A stretch of DNA of 64,000 bases from an uncultured Rhodospirillales bacterium (GTDB lineage: Bacteria; Pseudomonadota; Alphaproteobacteria; Acetobacterales; Acetobacteraceae): contig CAIMSN010000091.1 in assembly GCA_903844135.1 (NCBI GenBank), positions 1-64,000 of the forward strand. Direction: 5' to 3'. Shown piece after piece: positions 30,399 to 45,332 of this stretch. Made by a program: the position numbers and the translations under genes. Position 1 is the stretch's first letter. Every line of letters starts with the position of its first letter. Under the pieces are notes generated by a model that saw nothing but the letters and a program-made list of their open reading frames with translations, did no database searches and was not told the origin of the DNA.

Positions 30399-32594
30399 TC
30401 AGAGATCGAATTCCAGGCTGGCCAGGATCGTCCGCGGCGCGGCGAGATAGGCGGTGTTGGCGCCGGGGCTGCCGACGATGTTGCCGTCCGCGATCGACGA
30501 ATAGTAATGCCGGTCGGTCACGTTGACGGCGCCGAGCTTGGCGATCATCGCATGGCGCAGCAGGTGGGTGGCGTAGCGGACGCCAACGTCGAACGTCACG
30601 TATTGCGGCGCGAAGGACGTGTTGGTGTCGGTGACGGCGCGTTCGCTCTCGTAATGCGCGCTGCCGGTGAAGGCGAGCCCGTGCAGGATCGCCGGGTGCC
30701 AGTCCAGCGTCACGTCGCTTTTCCATTGCGGCACGCCGACGATCATCCCGCCCTCGGTCGCCGGGTTGCCCGAATCCAGCAATCGCGCGTCGATATAGGT
30801 GACGCCGCCGAGCACGCTCAGCGCCGGCAGCAGGTCGCCCTGCGCGAAGGTCTCCACCCCCTGGTCGCGCTGCTGGCCGATCACCTGGAAGACATTGTCG
30901 GCCAGCGTGGTGGCGTAGGGCCGAGTCATGCGGAACGCGTCGACCGTCAGCAGCAGGTTGGCGACCGGCGCGTATTTCACCCCGGCCTGCATCATCTCGT
31001 CGTGATACGGCGACAGGAAGGCGTTGGCGTTGATCGCGGTCGCCGGCGCCTGGTCGCTTTCCTCGACGCTGCTCGCATAGGTGAAGTACGCGGTGACGGT
31101 GCCGGTCGGGGTCCAGATCCCGCTCACCGTGGGGCTGAACGCGCCGCTGGCATCGCCGGTGCTGGTCCGCACATCCTTGGCGCTGAAGCTCTCCGAATGC
31201 AGGAAGGACTCGCTGAACACCGCCTGGATCGCCCAGTGCCTGTCGACATGCAGCGTATCGCCCTCGACGATCGATTGCTGGAACAGGTCTCCGGCGAGAT
31301 ATTGCGTGCCGTGCGACGGGATCGGCACGGTCCGGAAGATCGCCGGGTCGGCGAGGTTCGATGCGCCGAGCGTCGACACGATCGAATTGCGGTAATTGTA
31401 CTGGTCGTTGACGAAGCCGTTGGTCCCCAGCGTCAGATCGTTGCGCAGGCCGGCGATCCGCACGTGGCCGGTGAGCGATGCCTCGTTGCTGCCGTCGGTG
31501 AAATGCGGGACGGCGGTGAAGTTCTTGGTCGTGGTGTAGTCGCCGCGATTGTCGGTCAGCGTGTTGGTGATGCCGAACAGGTTGCGCTGCGCGTCCTGGT
31601 AGAGGCCGCCGAGTTCGAGCCGCCAGCCGCCGCCGACATCATGGATGATCTTCACCAGCCCGGTATCGGTGATGAGATCGGTGCCGGCGCCCGGCTGGCC
31701 GAGGCCGCGCCGCGTCGGATCCGGCGCCTCGGGCAGGATCGTGCTCCTGTTGCTCGCACTCGTGCTGGCGCCGTCATAGACGATGCTGCCGGGCAGTCCG
31801 TAGCCGCTATCCTCGTAGTGGCTGCCATCGACCTGGATCACCGTGTCGGCGTCCAGATGGATGTCGAGATCCGCGCTGCCGAGCGTGCGGTCGGCGAAGC
31901 TGCCGTTCGCGTAGCTCTCGCCCTCGCCATGCACGAGGTCGATGCGATAGCCGAGCCAGCCGTTGCCGCCGACGCGGCCGCCGACGTCGCCCTCGGTGGT
32001 GAACAGCCCGTCGCTGGCGTAGCTGCCGACCAGGCGGGCGAGCGGCGTATCGGTCGGGCGCTTCAGGATGTAGTCGAACACCCCGGCCGGCGTCTCCGGC
32101 CCGAACAGTGCGCCGCCGAGCCCGTTCAGCACCTGGATGCTGTCGAGATTCTCGACCGGGATCGCGGTGGTGCCGATGATGTTGAGGCCGTCGAGCCGCG
32201 TGTTCTGGGTGATCGAGCCCTGGAAGCCGAGCGATTGCGGGCGCGACACTTCCAGCCCCTGCTGGTCGCGCACCTCGACCGACGGCAGCGACCGGAGCGC
32301 GTCGTTCAGCGTACGCAATTGCTGGTTGGCCAGGAAATCCTGCGTCAGCACCGTCACCGAAACCGGCGCGGTCAGGATCGGGGTCTGGCCGAGCGGCCCC
32401 AGTTGCGCGGTGGCGGCATGATAGTGCGCGGCCGATGCGTAGGGTGCCTGGCCGCGCACCAGGACGCGCTCGGGTCCGTTCTGGGGCGTCGCCACCTGTG
32501 CCGGTCCGGAGTCGGCGGCCCGCGCGACCAGCGCGCCGTTCGGCAGCCCGGCCGCCAGCAGAACGGCAAGCAGCCGCGTCGATCCCGATGCCAT
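30399..32594 (-). CDS. TonB-dependent outer-membrane receptor
   Basis: Signal peptide; plug domain VSVTVLTQDFLANQQLRTLNDALRSLPSVEV; C-term YSSIADGNIVGSPGANTAYLAAPRTILASLEFDL. Confidence 0.94.
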   Translation of the reverse strand: MASGSTRLLAVLLAAGLPNGALVARAADSGPAQVATPQNGPERVLVRGQAPYASAAHYHAATAQLGPLGQTPILTAPVSVTVLTQDFLANQQLRTLNDALRSLPSVEVRDQQGLEVSRPQSLGFQGSITQNTRLDGLNIIGTTAIPVENLDSIQVLNGLGGALFGPETPAGVFDYILKRPTDTPLARLVGSYASDGLFTTEGDVGGRVGGNGWLGYRIDLVHGEGESYANGSFADRTLGSADLDIHLDADTVIQVDGSHYEDSGYGLPGSIVYDGASTSASNRSTILPEAPDPTRRGLGQPGAGTDLITDTGLVKIIHDVGGGWRLELGGLYQDAQRNLFGITNTLTDNRGDYTTTKNFTAVPHFTDGSNEASLTGHVRIAGLRNDLTLGTNGFVNDQYNYRNSIVSTLGASNLADPAIFRTVPIPSHGTQYLAGDLFQQSIVEGDTLHVDRHWAIQAVFSESFLHSESFSAKDVRTSTGDASGAFSPTVSGIWTPTGTVTAYFTYASSVEESDQAPATAINANAFLSPYHDEMMQAGVKYAPVANLLLTVDAFRMTRPYATTLADNVFQVIGQQRDQGVETFAQGDLLPALSVLGGVTYIDARLLDSGNPATEGGMIVGVPQWKSDVTLDWHPAILHGLAFTGSAHYESERAVTDTNTSFAPQYVTFDVGVRYATHLLRHAMIAKLGAVNVTDRHYYSSIADGNIVGSPGANTAYLAAPRTILASLEFDL

Positions 32595-32617
32595 GTCCTA
32601 CCCCGCAAAACCGGGTG

Positions 32618-32641
32618 CGTTATATCCGACCGGACATAGCG
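32618..32641. promoter_or_regulatory. ModE-box-like operator CGTTATAT-N8-ACATAGCG
   Basis: Inverted half-sites; matches the remembered E. coli modA operator core (CGTTATAT-N8-ACATAACG) at 15 of 16 half-site positions; overlaps TATAAC of the TonB-receptor promoter region. Confidence 0.7.
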
Positions 32642-32651
32642 CTACGACCCG

Positions 32652-33014
32652 CTATCGGGCGATCAGGGCGGCAAGACGGGCGAGTGTGACATTTGTGGCA
32701 GCCTGCGCATCGCTCTCCAGCCGGCGATAGCAGTCGACCAGCGCGCTTCCCGCCTCGGTCAGCGACGCGCCGCCGCCGCCGGCGCCGCCCGGCCGCGCCG
32801 TCACCACCGGCCGGCCCAGGCTTTCGCCGATCGCCTCGACCAGCGACCAGGCGCGCCGGTACGACATGCCCATGGTCCGCCCCGCGGCCGCGATCGAGCC
32901 GTGCGCCGCGATCGCCTCGAGCAGCCGGACCTTGCCGGGCCCGAGCCAGCGGCCGTTCTCGGTATCGATGCGCAGCGTGAGCCGCAGAACAGGAACGCCA
33001 GCGTGTCGGGTCAT
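32652..33014 (-). CDS. ModE-like winged-helix regulator, no MOP/molbindin domain
   Basis: KVRLLEAIAAHGSIAAAGRTMGMSYRRAWSLVEAIGESLGRPVVTARPGGAGGGGASLTEAGSALVDCYRRLE; 120 aa. Confidence 0.88.
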   Translation of the reverse strand: MTRHAGVPVLRLTLRIDTENGRWLGPGKVRLLEAIAAHGSIAAAGRTMGMSYRRAWSLVEAIGESLGRPVVTARPGGAGGGGASLTEAGSALVDCYRRLESDAQAATNVTLARLAALIAR

Positions 33015-41133: not shown

Positions 41134-41776
41134 AATCGAACTCCGTCGCCAACCCCGGATCATCCCGGTGCGCGAACAGCCTGGCGATCTGATGCGGCAG
41201 CACCCGGCCGGTCGACAGATCCTCCGGTATCTCGCCGGCCGCGAAGAAGCGCGCATCGGTCGTCTCGATGTTCGGCCCCGTCTCGACCGGATCCGGCGCC
41301 AGCAGCGCGCAGACGAAGAACAGCTTGCAGATCGAGAACGGGCCGAGCGGATGGTGGCCCTGCCTGGCGCGGTCGTGCACCAGCGCCAGCTTCTCCGCCT
41401 TGACGCGATAGCCGCTCTCCTCCAGCACCTCGCGCACCGCGCACTCCGACGCGGTCTGGTTCACGTCGGCCCAGCCGCCCGGCAGGGTCCAGCGTCCGCC
41501 ATCGGCCAGTTCGCGCACCAGCAGCAGCCGGCCCTGGTGATCGAACACCGCGCCGCGCACGTCGAGCTTCGGGGTGGCGTAGCCACGCTCCGCCTCGAAG
41601 GCCGCCTGCAGGGCCTGCGGGTCGGCCCCGGCCGGTCCGGCCATCATCCTGGCGGCGAGCGCGGTCAGCGCCTGGTAGCGTTCCCTGTCGTAGGGATCGC
41701 GGGTGAAGGCCAGGCCGCTCTGCGCCAGCGCCTGGACCTGCCGGCTCCAGCTCAGCCAGTCCGGTTCCTCAGTCAT
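41132..41776 (-). CDS. NUDIX hydrolase with N-terminal accessory domain
   Basis: GGWADVNQTASECAVREVLEESGY Nudix box. Confidence 0.92.
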   Translation of the reverse strand: MTEEPDWLSWSRQVQALAQSGLAFTRDPYDRERYQALTALAARMMAGPAGADPQALQAAFEAERGYATPKLDVRGAVFDHQGRLLLVRELADGGRWTLPGGWADVNQTASECAVREVLEESGYRVKAEKLALVHDRARQGHHPLGPFSICKLFFVCALLAPDPVETGPNIETTDARFFAAGEIPEDLSTGRVLPHQIARLFAHRDDPGLATEFD

Positions 41777-42869
41777 CCGCCTGCTCTCCTGCCAGCGCCA
41801 CCGACTTGACCAGCGCCACCACCGCCACGCCGGGCCGCAGGCCGAGCCTCGCGACCGAATCGTCGGTCATCCTGGCCAGGATGGCCTGGCCGCCGCCCTC
41901 CGCCGGCTCGAGCACCGCGACCGAGACCGACGGCCCGGCGCGGCGCACCGCACGGACCCTGGCCGGCAGCACGGTCTGCGCGCTGCTGACCGGCGGCGCA
42001 CCGTCGGCACGAAGCACCACCACGTCGCGGGCCGGCACCGCGACCCTGATCCGGGCGCCGACGGGATCAGCGAGCAGCGGCAGCACCAGAGCGAAGCCGC
42101 CGGCCTCGACCCGGCTCAGCCCGCGCTCCGGCACATGCGCGCTCACCACCCCGTCGAGCAGCGCCACCGCATCCGCGCGCTCGCCGAGTTCGCCGCCGGC
42201 CAGCATCTCGGCGACCGGGCCGCTGCCGGCGATCCTGCCGTCCCGGACCAGCACCAGCGTGTCGCACAGCAGCCCGGCCTCGCGCCTGGAATGGGTGACG
42301 TAGAGGATCGGCAGGCCGGCCTGGCCGCGCAGACGCGCCAGATAGGGCAGGATCTCGTCCTTGCGGGCGGCATCGAGCCCAGAGAGCGGCTCGTCCATCG
42401 CCAGCAGGTCGGGCCGCGACAGCAGCGCGCGGCCGATCGCCACCCTCTGCCGTTCGCCGCCGGACAGGCCGGGCACCGGCCGGCGGAGCAGCGCGGCCAG
42501 GCCCAGCAGGCTCACCACCTCGTCGAAGCCGGGGCCGGACCGCCCGGGCGAGGCGCGGCGCAGCCCGTAGCGCAGGTTCGCGTCGACCGAGAGATGCGGA
42601 AACAGCCGTCCGTCCTGGAACACCACGCCGATCCGGCGACGCTCCGGTCGCAGCCAGAGTCCCGGGCCGGACAGCGTCCGTCCGCCGAGCTCGATCGCGC
42701 TCCGGTCCGGACGGAACAGGCCGGACAGGGCGGCGAGCAGGCTGCTCTTGCCGGCACCGGAGGGTCCGAACAGGCCGATCACGCCGGGAATCGGCGCGGT
42801 GAAGGCGAGATCGAGCGTCCGGCCACCGGGAAAGCGGTGCGACAGCGACACCGACAGCGTGCCGCTCAT
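41769..42869 (-). CDS. modC: Molybdate ABC transporter ATP-binding protein ModC
   Basis: LFGPSGAGKSSLLAALSG, LSGGERQRVAIGRALLSRPDLLAMDEPLSGLD, C-term TOBE/MOP-like region; follows modA, modB. Confidence 0.93.
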   Translation of the reverse strand: MSGTLSVSLSHRFPGGRTLDLAFTAPIPGVIGLFGPSGAGKSSLLAALSGLFRPDRSAIELGGRTLSGPGLWLRPERRRIGVVFQDGRLFPHLSVDANLRYGLRRASPGRSGPGFDEVVSLLGLAALLRRPVPGLSGGERQRVAIGRALLSRPDLLAMDEPLSGLDAARKDEILPYLARLRGQAGLPILYVTHSRREAGLLCDTLVLVRDGRIAGSGPVAEMLAGGELGERADAVALLDGVVSAHVPERGLSRVEAGGFALVLPLLADPVGARIRVAVPARDVVVLRADGAPPVSSAQTVLPARVRAVRRAGPSVSVAVLEPAEGGGQAILARMTDDSVARLGLRPGVAVVALVKSVALAGEQADD

Positions 42870-43573
42870 CGGGCGACGCCGTTGCCGGCCGCCCGTCTCC
42901 GGCCCGGCAGACGGCGCAGCAGCAGCTCCGAGACCGCCAGCCCGGCCAGCGCCAGGGTCAGCGACACCAGCGCCAGCCTGGCGGCGACCGCCTCCCCGCC
43001 CGGGAGCTGCAGCGCCTGGTAGATCGCCAGCGGCAGGGTCTGCGTCCGGCCGGGGATGTCGCCGGCGAACACGATCACCGCGCCGAACTCGCCGAGGCTG
43101 GCGGCATAGCCGACCGAAGCCGCGGCCAGCACGCCGGGCGCGGCCAGCGGCAGGGTGACGGTGAGGAAGCGGTCGAGGCGGCCGGCGCCGAGGCTGGCGG
43201 CGGCCTGCTCGAGGCCAGGATCGACCGCATCGAACGCCAGCCGGATGGTGCGGACCATCAGCGGCAGCGTCATCACCCCGGTGGCCAGGGCGGCGCCCGC
43301 GGTGGTGAACACCAGCCTGGCGCCGAAGCCGCGCCAGAGCAGCCCGCCGACCGGGCCCTGCAGCCCGAACAGCAGCAGCAGCAGCCAGCCGGTGACCACC
43401 GGCGGCAGCACCATCGGCAGATGCACCAGCATGTCGAGCAGCGGCCGGCCGGCCCAGCGTCCGCGCGACAGCACCCAGCCGAGCAGCAGCGCCACCGGCA
43501 GTGCGCCGGCCAGCGCCAGCAGCGCCACATACAGCGACAGCCGCACCGCGACCCATTGCTCCGGCGCGAGCAC
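42866..43573 (-). CDS. modB: Molybdate ABC transporter permease ModB
   Basis: QWVAVRLSLYVALLALAGALPVALLLGWVLSR, DMLVHLPMVLPPVVTGWLLLLLFG; GTG start assigned. Confidence 0.92.
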   Translation of the reverse strand: MLAPEQWVAVRLSLYVALLALAGALPVALLLGWVLSRGRWAGRPLLDMLVHLPMVLPPVVTGWLLLLLFGLQGPVGGLLWRGFGARLVFTTAGAALATGVMTLPLMVRTIRLAFDAVDPGLEQAAASLGAGRLDRFLTVTLPLAAPGVLAAASVGYAASLGEFGAVIVFAGDIPGRTQTLPLAIYQALQLPGGEAVAARLALVSLTLALAGLAVSELLLRRLPGRRRAAGNGVAR

Positions 43574-43575
43574 GC

Positions 43576-44388
43576 TCAGGCCGGGACGCGGAAGCCGGGG
43601 ACGCGGAAGCCGTGGGCGCGGAACACGGCCAGGGCGGGCCCGGTGCGCAGGAAGGCCAGGAAGGCGGCCGCCTCCGGCGCGTCGCTCAGCACCGCGGCGG
43701 GATAGAGGATCGGCGGATGGCTGCTCTCCGGAAAGGTGCCGGCGACGGCGATGCCCGGCGCTGCCTTCACGTCGGTGGCGTAGACGATACCGGCCGGCGC
43801 CTCGCCGCGTTCCACCAGGAGCAGTGCCGCGCGGACGTTCTCCGCCGGCGCCAGACGGGTGGACACGGACGGCCACAAGCCGAGCGTGGTGAGAGCCTGC
43901 CTGGCATAGATCCCCGCCGGCACCGAGGCCGGGTCACCCATCGCGAGCCGGCCGCCGGCGCCGAGCAGGGCCGGCAGATCGAGGGTCCGGTCGATCGTCA
44001 CCGGCTTCACCGCGGCGGCCGGCTCGACCAGCACCAGCGCGTTTCCGAGCAGGTCGACGCGACTGTCCGGCTTCAGACGGCCGGCCTTGGCGAGACGATC
44101 CATCCAGATCTCGTCGGCGGACAGGAACAGGTCGGCATCTGCGCCCTGCTCGATCTGGCGGGCCAGCACCGCGCTGGAGGCGAAGGAGAGCTTCGGCGCG
44201 GCATGGCCACGCGCCGCCCAGAGGCCGGCGATGGCAGTCATCGCCTCGGTCAGGCTGGCGGCGGCGAACACCAACAACGGCCGTCCTGGCGCGGCGGCGG
44301 GCTCGGCCTGCGCGACCTCGGTTCCGGCCGCTCCGAGTGCCGCCGCCGCAGCCACGGTCCGGAGAAAAACGCGCCTTCCGGTGGTCAT
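43576..44388 (-). CDS. modA: Molybdate ABC transporter substrate-binding protein ModA
   Basis: Signal sequence, PLLVFAAASLTEAMTAIAGLW, SSAVLARQIEQGADADLFLSADEIWMD. Confidence 0.93.
   Translation of the reverse strand: MTTGRRVFLRTVAAAAALGAAGTEVAQAEPAAAPGRPLLVFAAASLTEAMTAIAGLWAARGHAAPKLSFASSAVLARQIEQGADADLFLSADEIWMDRLAKAGRLKPDSRVDLLGNALVLVEPAAAVKPVTIDRTLDLPALLGAGGRLAMGDPASVPAGIYARQALTTLGLWPSVSTRLAPAENVRAALLLVERGEAPAGIVYATDVKAAPGIAVAGTFPESSHPPILYPAAVLSDAPEAAAFLAFLRTGPALAVFRAHGFRVPGFRVPA
43583..43627. repeat. 15-bp tandem repeat (two perfect copies plus one degenerate) at the modA 3' end
   Basis: GGGACGCGGAAGCCG x2 then TGGGCGCGGAACACG; encodes FRAHG-FRVPG-FRVPA. Confidence 0.85.
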
Positions 44389-44456
44389 CGATGCCGATCC
44401 TCGTCTATGCCGCGACAAGAAACCATATCCAGCGGCGGAACGACCAGGAGCGGACC

Positions 44457-45332
44457 ATGCCGATGCCAGATTCGCCGCCTTGGTCCGGCGACGCCGTCGC
44501 CGCAACGCTGGAGCGGCTGCGCGCACGAACGCCGCTGGTGCATTCGATCACCAACCTGGTCGTCACCAACAGCACCGCCAATGCGCTGCTGGCGATCGGC
44601 GCCTCGCCGGCAATGGTCGAGGCGGAAGAGGAGAGCGCGGCGTTCGCCGCGATCGCCGATGCGCTGGTGATCAATCTCGGCACCATGACGCCGCAGCGCG
44701 CCCGCGGCATGGAGGCCGCCGCCGCGGCCGCGCGGCAGGCCGCGACGCCCTGGGTGCTGGATCCGGTGGCGGTGGGCGCGCTCGGCTATCGCTCTCGGGT
44801 GGCGGTCGGCCTGCTGGCGCACCGGCCGCAGGCGATCCGCGGCAACGCCTCGGAAATCCTGGCGCTGGAGGCGCTGAGCGATCCGGACCGGCCCGGAGCG
44901 GGGCGCGAGGCTGGGAACGAGGGGGGCCGCGGTGTCGACAGCGCGCATGCGCCGGAGGCGGCGTTGCGGTCCGCCCGGGCCCTGTCGCTGCGCACCGGGG
45001 CCGCGGTGACGGTCAGCGGCGCGGTCGATCTCTGCACCGACGGCGCGCGTCTGTTCCGTGTCGGCAACGGCCATCCGATGATGACGCGCGTCACCGGGCT
45101 CGGCTGCACCGCCACCGCGCTGATCGGCGCCTGTCTCGCGGTCGAACCGGACCCGCTGCTCGCCTCTGCGCATGCGATGGTACTGGTCGGCCTGGCGGGA
45201 GAGCTGGCCGCCGAACGCGCCCGCGGCCCGGGCTCGCTGCAGATGGAACTGCTCGACGCACTGTATCTGCTCGACGGCGCGACGGTGATCGCCAGGGCGT
45301 CGTTGACGGCGGACGAGCTCCGCGCCGTTTGA
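44457..45332 (+). CDS. thiM: Hydroxyethylthiazole kinase
   Basis: RARTPLVHSITNLVVTNSTANALLAIGASPAMVEAEEE, WVLDPVAVGALGYR, IRGNASEI, VTGLGCTATALIGA. Confidence 0.94.
   Translation: MPMPDSPPWSGDAVAATLERLRARTPLVHSITNLVVTNSTANALLAIGASPAMVEAEEESAAFAAIADALVINLGTMTPQRARGMEAAAAAARQAATPWVLDPVAVGALGYRSRVAVGLLAHRPQAIRGNASEILALEALSDPDRPGAGREAGNEGGRGVDSAHAPEAALRSARALSLRTGAAVTVSGAVDLCTDGARLFRVGNGHPMMTRVTGLGCTATALIGACLAVEPDPLLASAHAMVLVGLAGELAAERARGPGSLQMELLDALYLLDGATVIARASLTADELRAV

Follow-up and report, generated by a model that had tools for sequence, protein, structure and literature searches.

The locus lies on the minus strand of a 64-kb stretch of DNA from a relative of the acetic acid bacteria (the window, by which we mean the whole stretch that was analysed). 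In minus-strand order it comprises modE (33014..32652), a 24-bp inverted repeat (32618..32641) and a gene for a TonB-dependent receptor of 731 aa (30399..32594), whose ATG is at 32594 and whose 3' end is faced by a convergent FAD oxidoreductase gene. The gap between modE and the receptor gene is 57 nt. As an earlier, sequence-only reading of this DNA had described, the 120-aa ModE-type ORF, the box and the receptor share one orientation, both genes being on the minus strand, and modABC lies about 9.1 kb from the receptor locus (the earlier figure was about 9 kb). The modABC genes, assigned by family matches to modA, modB and modC and predicted to encode an inner-membrane molybdate importer, occupy 41769..44526 on the minus strand; these are the coordinates of the listed ORFs, within which the true starts fall. 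A plasmid search with the locus as query gave no match.

The receptor has the organisation of its class, a Plug domain (Pfam, 2.5e-14) followed by an outer-membrane barrel, and no N-terminal signalling domain was found in it. Its alignment to TIGR01783, the TonB-dependent siderophore receptor family, spans residues 77-729 and reaches 187.7 bits against a curated threshold of 223.5; the protein is thus related to this family but falls outside it by the family's own threshold. The nearest PDB relatives by sequence are FemA, BauA and FhuA, all siderophore receptors, and the AlphaFold model has a mean pLDDT of 50, with strands predicted at low confidence only.

The regulator (32652..33014, minus strand) is the single ModE-family gene of the genome. 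It matches TIGR00637, the ModE repressor domain, over residues 25-110 (1.2e-25; 89.4 bits), slightly missing the curated cut-off of 98.5, which is reached by no copy in the family genomes searched. In agreement with the earlier claim that the regulator lacks molybdate-binding MOP domains, a domain search of the 120-aa protein found HTH_1 alone and no TOBE/MOP domain, and it is therefore not a full-length ModE of the E. coli type, with C-terminal MOP/TOBE molybdate-binding domains. Its description as truncated has to be given up: the closest solved structure is 2ijl, a protein of 135 aa from Agrobacterium tumefaciens annotated as a molybdenum-binding transcriptional repressor, so the window regulator is an ordinary short ModE of Alphaproteobacteria and no decayed gene. 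The A. tumefaciens short ModE is reportedly a repressor of modABC that tracks the status of the molybdenum cofactor (Moco) and not molybdate directly.

Directly after modE and before the receptor, the box reads CGTTATAT-N8-ACATAGCG at 32618-32641, and CGCTATGT-CCGGTCGG-ATATAACG on the receptor coding strand. These are exactly the letters that the sequence-only reading gave; its placement of the box just upstream of the receptor ATG also stands, but the distance is 23 nt by our count and not 24 nt. The TATAAC hexamer that it saw overlapping the box indeed lies inside it (plus-strand positions 32619-32624) and is a weak -10-like element of the minus strand with no matching -35; no full sigma-70 consensus match was found. 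The box has the inverted CGNTATRT half-sites, 8 nt apart and in the regulatory region of a putative molybdenum gene, that define a Mo-box, and the consensus for E. coli ModE is quoted as ATCGCTATATANNNNNNTATATAACGAT in PMC2700814. It is the sole match in the window at up to 3 mismatches, where shuffles expect 0.03, and across the genome (3.78 Mb) no other site lies within 1 mismatch of CGNTATNT-N8-ANATANCG. With a scoring matrix trained solely on sites that do not precede TonB receptors, the window box scores 34.4, the runner-up within the window 5.9, and the best other genomic site 15.3 among the near-matches of the mismatch search, which were the sites scored. The genome-wide scan that had been proposed earlier thus leaves the box, by mismatch search and scoring, as the genome's only strong site. 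That it is a genuine ModE box, and a putative operator, is borne out by where the motif occurs in the family.

Across 150 genomes of the family, the strict motif occurs at 31 sites in 27 genomes, compared with 1 for the reversed control. These sites often precede modA or modABC, modE, small subunits of CO dehydrogenase/XDH and aldehyde dehydrogenases (the last two identified by eye from N-terminal sequence), and class-wide the motif is also found before moaA-like genes and additional modABC operons. By the genes it precedes, the motif is a molybdenum-regulon motif. moaA is present in 18/18 genomes checked.

The same searches brought up other genes and a variant of the motif. ModE boxes stand before DUF2325 genes (L074:4689-6038, minus strand; L188:1931-3232, plus strand; Pfam match in both tested), and similar N-termini were recognised by eye in L077, L078 and L083; this uncharacterised family may be a member of the molybdenum regulon. 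A secreted protein family also follows ModE boxes in several genomes (L082:5091-5975 and L088:5162-6049, both minus strand); Pfam gave no match for the one case tested, L082, and the family is possibly a molybdenum-related envelope protein. Finally, the ModE-positive genomes of one group (G042, G123, G060, G135, G073 and G142) each have 2-6 copies of a variant box, TCTATAT-N8-ATATAGA (for example G123:C19:37044 and G042:C17:9151), with 0 control matches and with some sites upstream of homologues of the window receptor. It apparently reflects a shift of ModE specificity in that group.

The box is conserved together with the receptor. Close orthologues are 74-87% identical overall (79-87% for the four that bear a box), and the box is kept before the receptor in 3/3 modE-bearing relatives (upstream matrix scores of 25.6 in G132, 21.0 in G071 and 18.2 in Lichenicoccus roseus, G086) and in 0/2 modE-less ones (-5.0 in KSS8, G056, and -4.3 in Endobacter medicaginis, G001, with orthologues about 74% identical). 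The sequence flanking the box has diverged among orthologues while the box stayed, and it persists where modE has been displaced to another contig (G132) or lies 50 kb off (G071). Standing outside this count, the same-genus genome G537 scores 25.0 upstream of its receptor orthologue. At that place (L248:6451-6563), modE itself is missing, and a 114-nt remnant resembling the modE 3' end precedes the receptor along with the intact box.

Among more distant orthologues (56-60% identical) from ModE-positive genomes, an Acetobacteraceae MAG scores 27.8, two Sphingomonas genomes 21.9 and 21.6, and a Sphingomonadaceae MAG 12.5; the majority of the Sphingomonas orthologues keep the box. Beijerinckia (8.5) and one Sphingomonas (4.9) carry ModE without a clear box, which counts against a molybdenum reading. 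In a set of 36 homologues, those from genomes with modE (n=21) score higher than those from genomes without it (n=15; Mann-Whitney p = 3e-6), a statistic weakened by common ancestry since the genomes are related and not independent, with about four changes of ModE status on the tree. Shuffled sequence is beaten (p < 0.02) by 12/21 homologues with modE and 1/15 without. Conservation of the motif before orthologous receptors, on which the sequence-only reading had staked its proposal beforehand, is thus what we find, with exceptions only among distant orthologues. An operator kept before orthologues where the regulator is present is the mark of a regulon and, together with the Lichenicoccus operon described below, strongly supports the predicted membership of the receptor in the ModE (molybdenum) regulon.

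A single site in a single genome could in principle arise randomly, and the box might then be a palindrome without function. We consider this vanishingly improbable: against it stand the shuffle expectation given above for the window and the conservation before the same gene across genera despite diverged flanks. A chance motif is rejected by this conservation and by the controls (31 vs 1).

Gene neighbourhoods in relatives are informative about the receptor's partners. In L. roseus (L138/L178), a box, a WtpA-like protein, a fused WtpB/WtpC-like transporter, a second box, the receptor and modE follow one another in one direction, an arrangement in which the WtpABC-like set is apparently a molybdenum/tungsten importer in an operon with the receptor and modE. 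In G037, a 41%-identical receptor lies between a perfect box and modE, and in the Sphingomonadaceae MAG a ModA-like (SBP_bac_11) protein and modE are divergent from the receptor. On a fragment of a Burkholderiaceae MAG, modE and a gene for a Mop-like TOBE protein occur together with a box, a ModA-like protein and a piece of receptor, at a junction that looks damaged. The proximity of modABC in the window, which the sequence-only reading had pointed out, does not speak for co-regulation: no ModE box was found upstream, the best score being -5.9, and co-regulation through such a box is rejected. In G132, G071 and G001, too, matrix scoring gave no ModE box at those modA loci that were looked at. 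It follows that the detectable ModE target of this lineage is the receptor and not modABC.

Strict ModE boxes were also seen before TonB receptors unrelated to that of the window (L228:2952-5015 and L238:2830-4947, both minus strand), and in L238 a gene for a Peripla_BP_2 binding protein lies divergent to the receptor. TonB receptors may therefore be recurrent targets of ModE.

An alternative is that the cargo is iron, as a ferric siderophore, and that ModE control is secondary, for instance through competition between molybdate and iron for catecholate siderophores or through the iron requirement of molybdoenzymes. The family placement and the nearest structures speak for it, and other observations count against the molybdenum reading: the structurally solved sequence relatives are ferric-siderophore receptors, orthologues survive in the two modE-less genomes, and many homologues of 34-42% identity occur in genomes without modE or canonical modA. 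However, rough consensus scans for Fur, Irr and Zur sites upstream of the window receptor gave nothing convincing (weak Fur-like and Zur-like matches appear in the modE-negative G056), the Lichenicoccus operon joins the receptor with a WtpABC-like importer and modE, and a ModA-like protein is divergent from the receptor in the Sphingomonadaceae MAG. We regard iron as an unlikely cargo.

The reading we favour, and hold to be likely, is that ModE represses the receptor when molybdenum or Moco is sufficient and that a molybdenum or tungsten species is imported when scarce. What the genomes themselves show is the box, that it is conserved together with the receptor and not found where modE is missing, and the Lichenicoccus operon; from these we infer that ModE represses, that it responds to Moco status and what the receptor carries. 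Sitting on the box, the short ModE would mask the -10-like TATAAC and hold the receptor promoter repressed while Moco is plentiful. Once molybdenum becomes scarce, ModE would leave the box, and the TonB-dependent receptor would be produced and import the scarce molybdenum (or tungsten) species, perhaps as an organic chelate, into the periplasm, from where ModABC in the window genome or the WtpABC-like transporter in Lichenicoccus would complete uptake. The substrate may be molybdate, tungstate or a chelate; because the receptor barrel is siderophore-receptor-like, an organic chelate is a reasonable guess.

Regulation could also run in the opposite sense, with ModE activating the receptor, or the box could serve another gene or a read-through transcript of modE and the receptor. 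E. coli ModE is able to activate some promoters too, and modE and the receptor, 57 nt apart, could share a transcript. We nevertheless find these possibilities improbable, well behind that of an iron cargo: the box runs across the -10-like hexamer and, in three orthologues, is 22-34 nt away from the ATG, where a repressor would be expected, and repression is the known mode for uptake genes (PMC9542535, PMC6925177).

Parts of this arrangement recall known systems. E. coli ModE operators have the same inverted half-sites, the same spacing and the same overlap with the promoter -10 as the window box; however, the E. coli protein has molybdate-binding domains and modABC as its target, whereas the window combines a regulator that is a winged helix (wHTH) only, a boxless modABC and an outer-membrane receptor as target. 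The A. tumefaciens short ModE (2ijl) shares the domain architecture of the window regulator, but its known target is modABC and not a TonB receptor. In Rhodobacter capsulatus, likewise an alphaproteobacterium, MopA/MopB act at a Mo-box to repress an additional molybdenum uptake system, morABC (PMC6925177); in contrast, MopA/B carry molybdenum-binding domains, and MorABC is ModABC-like, with no outer-membrane component described there. Similarly, Azotobacter vinelandii ties TonB siderophore receptors to the supply of nitrogenase metals, in operons with ABC components, but these receptors are controlled by VnfA1 and are not shown as ModE targets (PMC9542535). Pseudomonas aeruginosa IcmP provides a dedicated outer-membrane step for molybdate, as we propose here; that route uses T6SS-secreted ModA together with IcmP, with no ModE-controlled TonB receptor described (PMC11734730).

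Our literature search, with most subscription journals outside its coverage, turned up no paper linking TonB to ModE, the Mo-box or molybdate, and a 2024 review of TonB-dependent uptake does not mention molybdenum or tungsten. It is possible that a regulon database already predicts the same link. Operator and regulator are of known kinds; in the literature searched we found no description of a TonB receptor as their conserved target.

Molybdate is usually assumed to pass the outer membrane passively via porins. The box conserved before the receptor where ModE is kept points to a little-known active route across this membrane for molybdenum (or tungsten). If a ModE-repressed TonB receptor proves true, the crossing would become an energised, specific step, and molybdenum and tungsten would join the metals with dedicated TonB transport; L. 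roseus is a named species in which the idea is genetically testable. It is tempting to speculate further, on what we see as evenly balanced chances, that the receptor defines a family of TonB-dependent transporters specialised in molybdenum or tungsten, probably in the form of organic chelates, which Acetobacteraceae share with Sphingomonadaceae and possibly Burkholderiaceae, and that the detectable ModE regulon of the window lineage has shrunk to the receptor. In that case, the unrelated receptors of L228 and L238 would imply that active outer-membrane uptake of molybdenum arose more than once.
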